From: Amanita rubescens
Taxonomy: Eukaryota; Basidiomycota; Agaricomycetes; Agaricales; Amanitaceae
Reading direction: 5' to 3'
Assembly: GCA_015039365.1 (NCBI GenBank)
Contig: WION01000264.1
Location: 1 to 64,000, forward strand
Length of the DNA: 64,000 nt
Part shown: positions 41,204 to 59,991 of the stretch, one piece after another
How positions within the stretch are numbered: the stretch's first letter is position 1
Layout of the letters: the number at the start of each line of letters is the position of its first letter
The notes under the pieces: model-generated
Database searches by the model: none
The model's input: only the letters and a program-made list of their open reading frames with translations
What the model was told of the DNA's origin: nothing
Made by a program: the position numbers and the translations under genes

Positions 41204-44200
41204 ATGGCTGCACCTTCTTTGAGTAAGTATGCCTTGGCATTACAGTCAGTAATACTAATCCTCAACCACTACTAATGCATATAATTAGATCAAGATGAGA
41301 TGCATGTTAAAATGCTCAGGGATCACTACCTATGCCCATATTTTCACATCCTTCTCATTGGGAGGGCTAATGCAGGCAAGACAACCATCCTTGAGAAGGT
41401 TTGTGGTGTAGGAAAGGGGACAAATCCCATCATATATAACAAGGATGGTAAGTCAGTCTGAGTTTTGTGTTTCCTTAGACTGTTGAGTTTCTTGCAGGTA
41501 ATCAGCTTGAACAATCTGTGATTCACTTGATGCCATCAATAGAGGTGAGTCAGGTACTGATGTATGATTGTACCCATTCACACAGTGCAATGATAATAGA
41601 GAGGCCTGCATAATATTGAGCATCAAATTACATACCCTGGAAGTAACTTTATCTTCCATGACTCTCAGGGTTTTGAATCTGGTTCAGCTGAGGAATTGGA
41701 GAATGCTTGGAAGTTCATTGAAAACAAGTCTGCAGAAACTGAGTTAAAGAATCAGCTGCATGCAATTTGGTATCTTTTGAAGCTGTTTTATTCCTTTATG
41801 GTACTGTCTGACCTGGTTTCCTGTAGGTACTGTATACCCATGGACAGCCCTCGTCCCATTCTACCTGCAGAACTTGAGTTCTTCAATAAAGGGACAGGCA
41901 GAGGTAAGTCCTAATTAATTCATATCTCATCTTGTTATTTGGGGAGATTGTTTATCCTTAACTGTTATTACCTCTCTTTCCTTTTGCTAAATTTCCACAA
42001 AATCTACTAAGTACCGAATTACAGTTTACTGACTAGTAAATATGCCCTTTACAGTTCCTTTGGTGGCTATATTCACTAAATTTGATGGTCAAATAGCCAC
42101 TGCATTTGTCAACTTGACTGATTCAAAGGATGAAGATAGGTGGGAGAGAGCCAGGGAAATCGCTGACATAATTTTTCAGGAAGTTTACCTTCCTAAAGTT
42201 TTCAATGCCAAATATCCTCCTAAGACATATGTGCGATTGGAAGGTGAGAATTATGAGGGTTTCTTCCTGAAAATTGGGAGTAATGTTGTTTCCTAGACAT
42301 GGATTTACCAGAGAAGAATTGTGCTGAATTAACTCAGCAAACTGCTGATGCAATAGATGATGACAGCATACGTCACTTGTTTATTTCAACACAGAAAAAC
42401 AATCTTGACCTTTGTGTCAAATCTGCACTTCAGTGAGTGTCACATTCAAAATGTCACTAACTAACATTGACATTGGTCAGGCATGTTCTGAAATATAAAG
42501 ATTTGACATGGGATGAGGTCATTATAATAGTTTTTTCCAAATTTCCACATTTCTGGGTATGTACCTTCATCAAACTGCATATTAGTATAGGAAAAGTTAA
42601 ATGGCAGTAGGTGGACAGGGTGGTAGGTGGCCTTCATATGGGATGATTAATACTTAGCAAAAAGTTCATTAGGAGGTAAGTAACATTCCAATGCCTTGAC
42701 ATGAAAACAAAATTAGCCATGCTCCAGAATAAACAACTAAGTGAAACACAGGTTAGTTGTCACCATATTCTTGATGGCATACTCTGATGTTATTGATATC
42801 AGTGGGTAAGTGACATAGAACTAGCATGGATCTATATTGCCTCATGGCAACAGTTTGTGAGTAATGCTTTCTTTTATGTCAACAGTGTTGTCCCATAATC
42901 TACAGGATGTGAGTCACTCATTGACACTCAATTTTGATTTTTGGAAAATGATCCCATATTGCATCATGTATAACCAATAGAAAGTGAGTTAATCTACCAT
43001 TGGAAGCAGACCTGTCAACCTAGTCTCTCATGGACAGGGAGTGAGTAGTACAACACTGCATCACACCACATCTGACCTGCTTAAAGAAAGTAAGCAACAT
43101 CAGTGTTTGTGCAGTTTGTCAGACATACTTTAATGAACAATAGAAAGTTGGTGACATATGTATTGTTATCTGAAAGAGAATCTCAACAAACTTCATTGGA
43201 TTAATAATAGGAAGTAAGTGACATTTCATTTCTGTCTGTTGAAAAACATTACATCTTGTCCCAAAACAACAGACAGTGAATATTTCTCCTTTCAATGCCT
43301 CTTCACTATTCCAAAACAAACAGGATGTATGTGCTACTTTGTTTAGATTTCAAAATTTGTCATATGAAATACTATGGCAAAAGAGAGTCAGTGGCATTAT
43401 TTTCCTTTCTTAATTGATTATGCTAATTGCATTCTAAAAGGAAGTGAGTGCAAAATCTGCAACAACACAATTTTAACACATTGTTGTGTTCTACAGATTG
43501 TGAGTGATATTGTAAGTTTTGTGAAAAGCAGTGAAGTCATATCTTTTCCTATAAACGTAGAAGGTTAGCAGCATGCCATGCTGGTTTAGTGGTTTAAGAG
43601 ATGACCCCATCAAAATTTGGCTAACAGTATGTGAGTAGCATGGCAAATAATTTTTGAAAAGCTGTTCTATGTATTTTTCCATACTACTGGCAGGATGTGA
43701 GCAACATTCAAGGTTTTTAAGGCAGTCTCATAACATCTTTCCCATCATCAACAGGGAGTGAGTGACATTGCATGTCTTGTGAAAGGTAGCCTCATCACAT
43801 GTTTCCCTATGAACAACAGGAAGTGAGTAACATTACATGTTTGTGAATGTCTCATCACCTCTTTTCCTATGGCCAACAGGAAGTCAGTGATATATTGCAC
43901 ATCTTGTGAAAGGCAGTCTCATCACATCTTTTCCTATGACCATCAGGTTGTGAGTGACATTGCACATTTTGTGAATGGCAATTGCCAATCTCATCACTTC
44001 TTTTCCTATGACCAATAGCAAGTGAGTAGCATTGTACATTTTATTAAAGCCAGTCTCATCACATCTTTCCCAACAGGATGTGAGTGACATTCCACATTTT
44101 GTGAAAGTCAGTCTCATCACATGTTTTCCTATGACCAACAGCTTCAAGTGAGTGACATTGCACACTTTGTGAAAAGCAGTCTCCTCACATAATTTCCAAT

Positions 44201-47200
44201 GACTAACAGCAAGTGAGTGACATTGCACATTTTGTGAAGGTCATCACACCTTTTCCTATGAGCAATAGCAAGTGAGTGACATTCCACATTTGGTGAATGG
44301 CAGGCTCATCGCATCTTTCCCTATTATGGACAGGATGTGAGTGACATTGCACATTTTGTGAAAGGCAGTCTCATTACAGCCTTTCCTATGACCAACAGGG
44401 AGTGAGTGCCATTGCTTATTTTGTGAAGTGCAGTCTCATTACATCTTTTCTATGACCAACAGGGAGTGAGTATATTTTGTGAAGTGCAGTCTCATCACAT
44501 TTTATCCTACATATGACCAACAGCTTGTGAGTGACATTTCACATTTTGTGAAAAGCATCTCATCACATCTTTTCCTGTGACCAACAGGGAGTGAGCAACA
44601 TTGTACATTTTGTCAATGGCAGTCTCAGTATCACATATATGATCAACAGCTTGTGAGTGACATTCCACATTTTGTGAAAGGCAGTTGCATCATATCTTTT
44701 CATATGACCAACAGTTTGTGAGTGACATTCCACATTTTGTGAAAGGCTTTCTCATCACATCTTTCCCTATGATCAACAGCGAGTGAGTGACATTTCTCAC
44801 TTTTTGAAGTGCATCCCATTACATCTTTTCCTATGAACAACAGGGAGTGAGTAACATTGCACATTTGTGAAAGGCATTCTCATCACCTCTTTCCCTATGA
44901 ACAACAGCTTGTGAGTGACATTTCACATTTTGTGAAAGGCAGTCTTGTCACATCTTGTCTCATAACCAATAGCTTGTGAGTGACATTGCACATTTTGTGA
45001 AAGACAGTTTCATCACATCCTTTCCTATGACCACCAGGGAGTGGGTGCCATTGCATGTTTTGTGATCAGTCTCATCACATCTTCCCCTATTATGGACAGG
45101 ATGTGAGTGACATTGCACATTTCATAAAAGGGAGTCTCATGACATCTTTTCCTATGACCAACAGTTTGTGAGTAACATTGCACATTTTGTGAAAGGCAAT
45201 CTCATGACATCTTTTCCTATGACCAACAGCTTGTGAGTGACATTGCACATTTTGTGAAAGGTGGTCTCATGACATCTTTTCCAATGACAATGACCAACAG
45301 TTTGTGAGTGACATTGCACATTTCATGAAAGGCAGGCTCATCACACCTTTTCCTACACCCAATAGCAAGTGAGTGACATTGCACATTTTGTGAAAGGCAG
45401 TTTCATCACATTTTCTCCTATGACCAACAGGGAGTGAGTAGCATTGCATATTTTGTGAAAGGCAGTCTCATCACATCTTTTCCTATGATCAACAGCAAGT
45501 GAGTGGCATTGCACAATTTGGGAAAGGCAGTCTCCACACCTTTTTCCATGACCAACAGCGAGTGAGTAATTTTGTGAAAAGCAGTCTCATCATATCATTT
45601 CCTATGACCAACAGCGAGTGAGCCTTCACATTGCATATTTTGTGAAAGTCAGTCTCATCACATCTTTTCCTATGACCAACAGCGAGTGAGTAACATTGCA
45701 CATTTGTGAAAGTCAGTCTCATCATATCTTTTCCAATGACCAACAGGGAGTGAGTAGCATTCCACATTTTGTGAAAGGCAGTCTCATCACATCAATTCCT
45801 ATGACCAACAGCGAGTGAGTGACATTGCACATTTTGTGAAAGGCAGTCTCACCACATCTTTTCCTATGATCAACAGGTTGTGGGTGACATTGCACATTTT
45901 GTGAAAGTCAGTCTCATCACATCTATTCCTACAACCAACAGCAAGCAGTGAGTCACATTGCACAGTTTGTGAAAGGCACTCTCATCACATCCTTTCCTAT
46001 CACCACCAGGGAGTGAGTCACCTTGCACTTTTGTGAAAGCCAGTCATCACATTTCTTCCTATCACCACCAGGGAGTGAGTTACATTGCATATTTTGTGAA
46101 ATCCAGTCTCATCACACCTTTTCCTATGGCCAACAGTTTGTGAGTGTCATTGCACATTTTGTGAAAGGCACTCATCACATCTGTTTCTATGACTGACAGC
46201 GAGTAAGTGACATTTTATGCATTTTGTAAAGTGTAGTCTCATCACATCTTTTCCTATGACTACCAGGGAGTGAGCAACATTGCACATTCTGTGATAGGCA
46301 TCTCATTACATCTTTTCCTATGACCAACAGGCTGTGAGTGACATTGCATATTTTGTGAAAAGCAGTCTCATCACATCTTTTTCTATGACCAACAGGTTGT
46401 TAGTGACAATGACATTGCACATTTTGTGAAAGGCAGTCTCATCAGATTTCTTCCTATGACCCACAGGAAGTGTGTAACATTCCACATTTTGTGAAAGGCA
46501 GTCTCATGACATCTTTTCCTATGACCAATAGCGAGTGAGTGACATTACACCTTTTGTGGCAGGCAGTCTCATCACACCTTTTCCTATGCATGACCAACAG
46601 GAAGTGAGTGACATTCCACATTTTGTGAATTCTAGTCTCATGACATCTTTTCCTATGACCAACAGTTTGTGAGTGACATTGAACATTTTGTGAAATGCAC
46701 TCATGTCATCTTTTCCTATGACCAATAGCGAGTGAGTGACATTGCACATTTTGTCCAAGGCAATCTCATCACGTCTTGTCCTATGACCAACAGGAAGTGA
46801 GTGATAGCAGATGTTGTGAAAGGATGTCTCATCACATCTTTCCCTGTAACCAACAGGAAGTGAGTGACATTGTACATGTTTTGAACAGCAGTCTAACATC
46901 TTTTCCTATGATTAATAGCTTGTGAGTGACATCACAAATCTTCTGACCTGTATTCTCACCATAATTCATGAATGTTTGAAATATCATTACATCATTATGT
47001 ATATTAGAAAGTGAGCATGTTGCCATATTTTTTCCATGTCTCACTTTTCCATTATTATCATTATAGATTGTGAGATTTCATTTCAGCTGACCCACTCCCA
47101 TGTTATGTGGTCATTCCTGTCACTTATATCTTCCTTAATTTCCAGGTGTGTCACAGATCTGATTCAAGAGGTATTGATTTTTATATCAGTTTGCATACTA

Positions 47201-47783
47201 GTGTGTAGGTCTGATGACACACTGGGCATATAATTCTATCTCATAATCAGCATGAAATTTTCTCCATGTTTGGAGACAAGCAAAGGCACTTTACCATCAT
47301 GGTACTTTTGTTCATTTTTTCTGGGTACTATATACAACTGATGCCATTGCAACAAGCCTACTGATTGTCAGATCTTAGTTTGTAAATTGTTCCCTTTCAT
47401 TTACTATATTTATGCTTAAACCTTCAAGCAATTGTTATCATTGCCAAGCTATCCTTTTGGACCAAAAAATCATTTCTGCCATCAGTTGCAGATGCCTTGG
47501 ATCAATACAAGCAAAAAGGCTATGTTCAGAAGCTGAAGACTCACATTACTCCTGACTTTATGCAATCTGGTCATCAAGATTTGATCACATTACTTTATAG
47601 GCAGGTGAATCACATTGATGGTAAGTACTTTGTCTAGTCATGCATCACTTATAAACAATCTATGGCAGGGTGAAACATCTAGCATGATATTCAAGTTCAG
47701 TTGTTTCAACATAGGCTGCATTACCTTTGCATTGAGCTAACATTTATTTGTACATAGATCACTTCTCATATGCCTTCCCCTGA
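41204..47783 (+). CDS. G-domain (50S-GTPase-type) P-loop GTPase gene with a giant intron array
   Basis: Early exons are 41204-41222, 41289-41448, 41498-41544, 41600-41769, 41827-41903, 42055-42243, 42297-42432 and 42481-42556. They encode 'FHILLIGRANAGKTTILEKV' (G1), 'FIFHDSQGFESG' (G3, DxxG), 'VPLVAIFTKFDG' (G4, TKxD), 'ERAREIADIIFQEVYLPKVF', 'RHLFISTQKNNLDLCVKSAL' and 'VIIIVFSKFPHFW'. This is the basidiomycete 'G domain-containing protein' family, of unknown role. Late exons (25-nt 47146-47170, 47429-47620, 47758-47783) give 'IVIIAKLSFWTKKSF', 'ADALDQYKQKGYVQKLK' and the end 'DDHFSYAFP'. Between them lie 4.3 kb of intron-like repeats with 3-nt spacers (separate entries). The phases fit only if the 25-nt exon follows phase 0, as the micro-exon reading predicts. 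The gene lies in a CpG-depleted, AT-rich island. Confidence 0.8.
42803..47069 (+). other. Series of 68 candidate micro-exons (66 of 3 nt, 2 of 6 nt)
   Basis: Between every AG and the next GT sits exactly one triplet, first TGG at 42803-42805 and last ATT at 47067-47069. Six-nucleotide exceptions are at 44142-44147 and about 45952-45957. My count of single triplets: GGA 12, CGA 8, GAA 8, CTT 6, TTT 6, GAT 6, CAA 5, AAA 4, GTT 3, ATT 2, and one each of TGG, ACA, AGA, AAG, TAT, GCT. None is a stop. All would be phase 0. The triplets vary far more between units than the adjoining intron-like sequence. Whether they are spliced together is unproven. The stretch 42557-42802 is less regular: one possible reading has a TAG triplet at 42608, another a GAG at 42673 and a zero-length exon at 42751. 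Confidence 0.6.
42806..47066 (+). repeat. Tandem array of intron-like units, about 64 bp period
   Basis: Roughly 67 consecutive units. The younger ones (43758-46920) share a consensus that begins GTGAGTGACATTGCACATTT, continues TGTGAAAGGCAGTCTCATCA and ends TTTTCCTATGACCAACAG. Units are mostly 50-66 nt, the size of an ordinary basidiomycete intron. The left units (42806-43757) and the last ones (after 46921) have lost most internal similarity, yet all keep a GT start, nearly always GTGAGT/GTAAGT-like, an AG end and the 3-nt gap to the next unit. Another intron of the same gene (42433-42480) starts GTGAGTGTCACATT and may be related to the founder. Minus-strand open frames of 60-126 codons across the array are by-products of the repeat. 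Confidence 0.93.
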
Positions 47784-59907: not shown

Positions 59908-59991
59908 TGTCCGTAGCTGGAGTCGAACCAGCGGCTTCTCGGAATTGCGATCAACCACAACGAGATGATTTAACCACTAATCGATACAGAC
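59908..59991 (-). tRNA. tRNA-His (anticodon GTG) with a 12-nt intron
   Basis: The minus strand folds as a complete cloverleaf. The acceptor stem pairs GTCTGTA with TACGGAC, discriminator A. The D stem is GATT/AATC, the anticodon stem TCTCG/CGAGA, the T stem GCTGG/CCAGC with loop TTCGACT. The anticodon loop becomes TTGTGGC once a 12-nt intron (TTGATCGCAATT) is removed after position 37, the canonical place. The base before the 5' end (59992) would be G, matching the G-1 of tRNA-His. The internal B box GGTTCGACTCC is a perfect consensus and the A box reads TCGATTAGTGG. Confidence 0.9.

Follow-up and report, generated by a model that had tools for sequence, protein, structure and literature searches.

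A 3-nucleotide (nt) exon is usually seen as a curiosity at the limit of splicing recognition, and fungi are known to carry introner-like elements, many near-identical introns that lie within one genome in many unrelated genes. As far as the excerpts of the respective reports go, extreme single cases include a 1-nt exon in Arabidopsis (PMC4674806), a 1-nt exon in CYP621A of Fusarium (PMC12940212) and the 3-base-pair (bp) exon of Drosophila homothorax (PMC7392893). Plant microexons of 1–15 nt are described as conserved and often unannotated, and the excerpted text contains one adjacent pair, of 5 and 12 nt (PMC8831610). Series of short exons characterize the MEG family of Schistosoma mansoni, for which the excerpts give 35 genes for secreted proteins, 10–20 short exons of 6–81 bp (3–81 in the abstract), mostly 15 bp, and introns of 0.1–5 kilobases (kb) (PMC10526429). 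Here we describe a GTPase gene of the mushroom Amanita rubescens that carries an array of tens of consecutive exons of this extreme size. The gene lies in a 64,000-nt stretch (positions 1–64,000 of contig WION01000264.1, assembly GCA_015039365.1), hereafter the window, which is part of contig C184 of the 75.7-megabase genome. We are highly confident that a stretch of this GTPase, amounting to 70 residues in the window, is spelled by a chain of single-codon exons and that the intervening introns are removed by the spliceosome.

Structure of the array

The first-pass annotation of this DNA had described tandem intron-like units running from GT to AG, spaced by 3-nt gaps without stops. The final splice model bears this out: its array exons measure 3 nt in 66 cases and 6 nt in two, and between them lie 67 GT-AG introns with lengths of 46–86 nt (median 62), an ordinary intron size for basidiomycetes. 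None of the 70 array codons is a stop, and the frame is open, with 0 stops, from 42413 to 47619. AG precedes and GT follows each exon (68/68), and the donor is GTGAGT or GTAAGT in 51 of 68 cases; in the window model as a whole GTGAGT accounts for 49 of 77 donors, and the introns cover the same 46–86 nt. A parser that scores splice sites without favouring any exon length returned 67 exons of 3 nt among the 74 of the modelled stretch, versus 15 of 330, within a flat length distribution, when applied to ten shuffles of the array.

Intron-free proteins carry the codons of sister arrays

When the predicted spliced product was compared with a protein database, the matches included several proteins encoded on JGI contigs of ~1.0–1.7 kb; these proteins cross ordinary intron positions and continue into or through the array. 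Because the introns are absent from these contigs, we take them to be RNA-derived. Codons that appear in order in such proteins are what micro-exon splicing predicts and what removal of the array as one long intron forbids.

The protein P0102 (source label jgi, 285 amino acids, 1099-nt contig) was compared with three sister loci by splice-aware alignment. With locus L038 (C289:72540–76660) it shares 275 of 285 residues across 52 introns, 49 with GT and 3 with GC donors; 41 exons are 3 nt long, and the residue is the same in 39 of the 40 cleanly comparable single-codon exons. Values for L031 are similar (271/285 identical, 38/40 single-codon exons in agreement, GC donors in 3 of 53 introns), as is the identity for L039 under stricter donors (272/285). 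As a control for overfitting at L031, the true array peptide scored 359.5 with 46/53 identities, versus 153–161 and 18–24/53 for six shuffles. Moreover, the codon chain of L031, WFETAKNRAKSYSHEDHYFAFGYFRGAHG, had been read from the DNA before P0102 was found, and it equals the P0102 sequence. For a second pair, P0049 and L033, 231 of 298 residues are identical, the first 19 residues of P0049 being upstream of the DNA compared, and by eye the array residues coincide at 26 of 40 positions. A protein search with the P0102 region gave four matches including P0102 itself, of which P0121 was new.

The 3-nt exons of L038, as aligned to intron-free P0102, fall within the definition of a microexon (an exon of at most ~30 nt that is included in the spliced product), and triplets that occur in intron-free proteins fall outside that of an intronic minisatellite, a repeat absent from mature mRNA. 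The first-pass annotation had weighed these same two readings. Sequence comparison supports its chain of single-codon exons in L031, L038 and L039 and, at lower identity, in L033, and the ordered codons contradict its alternative of a minisatellite inside a long intron.

The protein nearest to the window's own copy is P0001, which reads W-VDRA-V-TNEQLSETK-WFEKGKKESDREIEYDG, followed by 40 variable residues and then I-VRFHFR. The terminal VRFHFR is the translation of the intron after the ATT codon; this intron is unspliced in P0001, which fixes the array boundary there. By eye, P0001 agrees with 14 of the first 17 single-codon residues of the window, from which we infer that the window copy is spliced in the same way. 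P0004 reads VGRD-E-MANKQLSEAQ-WFEHGKKDTDKQIVYDG. Two further proteins, P0014 and P0016, are 89% identical overall, nearly alike before the array and different within it. P0014 and P0001 probably come from loci outside this strain, since the terminal exon of the former and a middle exon of the latter match the genome at best at 62% and 90%, respectively. Among the matches listed, most A. rubescens gene models cover ~46–72% of the query, and the P0063 model skips the array. A search of the strain's own genome for a contiguous copy of the conserved codons returned 0 candidates and was uninformative with its 38-residue query.

Gene model around the array

Coordinates of the features are collected in Table 1. 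Three small exons upstream of the array (12 nt, 3 nt and 24 nt) come in addition to those of the first-pass model. Downstream, the 25-nt exon that had been placed at 47146–47170 proved to be intronic and is unconserved in paralogs. According to the homologous intron-free proteins, it is TGT together with a 51-nt exon and another 25-nt exon that restores the phase. A 10-nt exon ATCTTAGTTT was ruled out in favour of the 25-nt exon, and a 4-nt exon near 42620 in favour of the 12-nt exon, in both cases on the evidence of proteins and paralogs. The AG/GT junction at 47145/47146 has the form that recursive splicing would use first as acceptor and then as donor; in L038 the alignment took one 106-nt intron instead. 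For the gene with the P-loop exon, the best family match is Pfam MMR_HSR1 (E 7.6e-4; 20.0 bits, slightly below the cut-off of 21.9). Elsewhere in the window a tRNA gene occupies 59908–59991 on the minus strand (Rfam RF00005, 51.7 bits).

Table 1. Exons and array segments of the GTPase gene, in window coordinates
Feature	Position	Strand	Remark
GTPase exon with P-loop (GRANAGKTT)	41289..41447	+	boundaries by eye
GTPase exon VPLVAIFTKFDGQ..., TKFD motif	42055..42242	+	at least 150 scored matches in genome, near-identical copies counted
Last ordinary exon before array, ends ...KFPHFW, phase 0	42481..42556	+	
12-nt exon VDRV	42611..42622	+	kept in paralogs; VDRA in P0001, VGRD in P0004, FRRQ in P0102
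3-nt exon GAG (E)	42673..42675	+	slot: V (P0001), E (P0004), H (P0102)
24-nt exon NKQLSETQ	42728..42751	+	30 nt in paralogs; TNEQLSETK in P0001
Array, 68 exons (66 × 3 nt, 2 × 6 nt), 67 short GT-AG introns	42803..47069	+	
Old conserved array part, W F D K G K K E T D R E I K Y, each residue from its own exon	42803..43630	+	matched by P0001
Younger array part, 65-nt tandem repeat (62-nt intron + codon)	43719..46932	+	49.8 copies, 77% matches
6-nt exon CTTCAA	44142..44147	+	
6-nt exon CAAGCA	45942..45947	+	
AG/GT junction, 0-nt exon, candidate recursive splice site	47145..47146	+	at same place in several paralogs
3-nt exon TGT	47202..47204	+	slot is F in P0102
51-nt exon HEIFSMFGDKQRHFTIM	47251..47301	+	homologous to GPLLSLFGDVPNKFSIT of P0102
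25-nt exon PTDCQILV + 1 nt, phase restored	47357..47381	+	homologous to PTACQVLI of P0102
Terminal exon IVIIAKLSFWTKKSFLPSV...	47429..47619	+	at least 150 scored matches in genome

Arrays throughout a gene family

Searching the genome with the first 598 nt of the window array gave 105 candidate places, the best 40 of which were scored as matches. Single exons of the gene reach at least 150 scored places each (219 candidates for the terminal exon, 253 for the TKFD exon), and many of these matches are near-identical pairs, maybe copies of two nuclei or duplicate contigs. One segment, C61:12238–12835, matches the window at 100% in this array search, and C79/C667 are among the identical or near-identical contig pairs. 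Such duplicated family loci suggest that both nuclear haplotypes were assembled or that contigs were duplicated.

We read 29 loci, namely the window, 20 members of its clade and eight others, mostly more distant; the identical copy of the window on C61 was left out of parsing. An array is present in all 29, with three-nt exons numbering from 10 (L030) to 84 (L021). Across these loci, 1378 of 1640 exons found by a slightly improved parser are exactly 3 nt long. Limiting the length to 0–9 nt, with no preference within that range, gave 3 nt for 1293 of 1358 array exons; here the end rule cut short L011 and L020. Members with 42–63% terminal-exon identity follow the same plan. Within the window's clade 2.2–6.3 kb separate the last ordinary exon and the terminal one, L026 being the longest; its array is broken by ~2.5 kb of other sequence, perhaps a transposon insertion.

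The majority first codons of the clade read W F E Q G K K E T D R E I K Y, and many array loci terminate in K I. The hypervariability of triplets proposed in the first-pass annotation holds for the younger right part of the array, the first 15 codons being conserved in the clade; its observation that the 3-nt gap persists in old units with diverged interiors recurs in the parsed loci. Two remote relatives from JGI, P0105 and P0110 (36% and 40% identical to P0016), have E/H/R/Y/L-rich stretches at about the same place, a hint of possible single-codon arrays outside Amanita.

Reading frame and codon conservation

We asked how the first 15 codon exons compare with 3-nt windows of the flanking introns in 14 of 16 unique loci, L029 and L036 being left out as more distant. 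The mean modal count is 12.6 of 14 loci for the codon exons versus 10.9 for the flanking windows (629 windows; Mann-Whitney P-value 7e-4, which is nominal because the windows overlap). Wrong lengths are found in 0 of 210 conserved-codon cells versus 7.6% in the flanking windows, and stops in 0 of 210 versus 430 of 8136. Distinct departures from the modal codon comprise 13 nonsynonymous and 1 synonymous changes, so the residues at these positions are not rigidly conserved. In all 16 loci the pairwise identity of GT and AG is 0.97–0.98. The triplets of the 29 loci contain one stop among 1378, versus 91 expected from positional base frequencies. A 'clean' set of 20 loci with 905 triplets has 0 stops for 58 expected; it omits L009, L014, L023 and L025 for their odd junctions, L026 for its foreign insertion, L012 for its stop, and L016, L019 and L020 as near copies. 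Between L031, L038 and L039 introns differ by 3–4%, with 10–17 of 44 introns differing in length, and 1–3 of 52 array codons differ, which is in the expected direction and non-significant alone.

Several results weigh against splicing of single-codon exons. Protein searches with the P0102 region and with the window model (none of 349 candidates) found no transcript of the window's own copy, and the RNA origin of the JGI contigs is judged from their lack of introns. The codon advantage is smaller when all 16 loci are taken (pairwise identity 0.861 versus 0.810 in intron interiors). The stop deficit is inflated by a scarcity of T..A triplets, TTA being depleted too (3 observed, 34 expected), which makes the positional stop test weak; the argument leans on the 14-locus test and on the P0102 alignment. 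Array codons of L031, L038 and L039 do not change clearly more slowly than the introns. Between L037 and L031, 24 of 52 array codons differ versus 3 of 192 ordinary codons, a contrast that may reflect either fast array change or forced alignment.

Frame-breaking junctions with intact splice sites belong among these points as well. There are 17 in L014 (one of 0 nt), 5 in L025, 2 in L023 (one in an old unit) and 1 in L009, where the 12-nt exon also has 13 nt. Their lengths are 0, 1, 2 or 4 nt, and they cluster in young arrays, mostly between near-identical introns; misassembly or real junction mutation may lie behind them. L012 has a genuine stop unit (TGA), has lost an acceptor and contains a 2-nt exon, and looks like a decaying copy. 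In L017, L018, L030 and L035 a few exons of odd length probably stem from ambiguous parsing. The odd junctions and the decay of L012 leave untouched L031, L038 and L033, the basis of the splicing argument.

Near-identical introns, varied codons and alternative explanations

In young arrays many introns equal the consensus (41/47 in L025, 25/36 in L024, 21/25 in L015), and diversity at codon positions ranges from 0.09 to 0.80. For the window array the diversity is 0.15 in introns versus 0.52–0.73 at codon positions. Units with identical introns, compared in six young loci, have the preceding codon in common in 11–25% of cases, compared with 8–13% for all pairs and 2–8% for units with very different introns. 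Intron-codon coupling therefore exists but is weak, which argues against simple duplication of intron plus codon, as this would give far more agreement. The 62-nt intron has 352 exact copies in the genome; among the matches listed, copies lie on C12, C13, C79 and C82, contigs with family loci. Three explanations come into question: homogenisation of the introns or their copying apart from the codons, strong diversifying selection on the codons, or polishing of the assembly toward a consensus. We put forward only tentatively that a process restricted to introns keeps them near identical while codons diversify. If this is true, identical introns would favour both splicing and recombination, among units as well as among loci, and perhaps more than 100 GTPase genes could rewrite a recognition-like segment residue by residue with the frame intact.

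An assembly or polishing artefact, which concerns the diversity of codons and not their splicing, is a serious possibility, if not the one we expect. Introns would have been drawn to the family consensus and junctions blurred by mixed reads of neighbouring units. Polishing toward the consensus is a real worry because the odd junctions cluster in young arrays. These junctions resemble dropped conflicting bases (CA, GA, A) and, save one in L023, sit among near-identical introns, and the terminal exon of L014 holds a 1-nt insertion. Against this, several young arrays are free of odd junctions, and the window array, for all its uniform introns, keeps a three- to five-fold higher diversity at its codons.

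A mobile introner-like element whose copies settled at the boundaries between codons seems rather unlikely to us; the introns would then come from one source and the codons would be older or independent. The low agreement of preceding codons between identical introns (just 11–25%) and the 352 exact copies are what such an element would leave. However, some coupling is present, very different introns in the same loci matching in codon still less often; the copies among the matches listed are on the contigs where family loci are; and insertion leaves the strict 3-nt, phase 0 rhythm unexplained.

It is improbable that only old arrays are used and that the young, near-identical ones, to which much of the window's array may belong, are skipped or in decay, even though most frame-breaking junctions occur in young arrays and the search for a transcript of the window copy was negative. 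The window array has sense codons at 70 of 70 positions and no frame break, P0001, from the window's clade, extends by its 40 variable residues beyond the conserved codons, and the young arrays of L021, L022, L024 and L015 have no odd junction. A minisatellite within one or a few long introns, with triplets that never reach mRNA, can hardly be true: much of the array is indeed a tandem repeat and young arrays are strongly homogenised, but the triplets appear in order in intron-free proteins, diverged old units retain the 3-nt gap, the conserved codons show neither wrong lengths nor stops, and for L031 and L038 the idea is refuted already if the P0102 contig is RNA-derived.

Proposed splicing of the array and its significance

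For the chain of single-codon exons we propose that ~70 successive short introns would each be taken out by intron definition, and that the remaining 3-nt exons would be joined into a chain and read in frame. Removal would be sequential, in the simplest case 5' to 3' during transcription, because 3 nt from acceptor to donor hardly allow simultaneous recognition of neighbouring introns by two spliceosomes. The pattern of P0001, in which the array is spliced and the intron after ATT is retained, fits sequential removal and does not prove it. Arrays may grow and shrink by whole intron-plus-codon units, which would shift the length of the protein segment and keep the frame. Young arrays would in this way produce a hypervariable insert between the GTPase domain and the conserved C-terminal segment. 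As a guess, this segment could have a role in recognition or non-self responses, which would fit a large and fast-changing family.

Serial joining of dozens of 3-nt exons, in many genes of one mushroom, would bring local intron density to one per codon. With dozens of such exons in a row exon definition is impossible, and intron definition must work with almost no exon; the order of splicing and its steric limits thereby become directly testable. The array also shows how gene finders overlook such segments, and it would offer a route for a protein segment to lengthen, shorten and vary by single residues.

Comparison with known systems

A chain of single-codon exons did not appear among the results listed for full-text searches of the open-access literature, which left subscription papers and outside preprints uncovered. 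In the excerpts of the reports on single extreme microexons, inclusion of 1–3 nt is alike but the exons are isolated and no chain is mentioned (PMC4674806, PMC12940212, PMC7392893). What the excerpted plant study calls a microexon 'cluster' is a group of homologous sites and no tandem chain (PMC8831610). Compared with the introner-like elements of fungi (PMC4457414), the copies described here are in tandem, in phase 0, 3 nt apart and, among the matches listed, within one gene family. The closest likeness is to the MEG genes, which, as excerpted, also string together numerous very short exons, most with a length divisible by three, and have variable products that are hard for automatic annotation (PMC10526429). 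The window array departs from the MEG pattern of 10–20 exons of 6–81 bp with introns of 0.1–5 kb: it has tens of consecutive one-codon exons and tandem introns of 46–86 nt, in a GTPase family. Overall, the chemistry is that of ordinary spliceosomal splicing and single microexons are known, but the tandem architecture of introns alternating with single codons is, to judge from the literature results listed, new.

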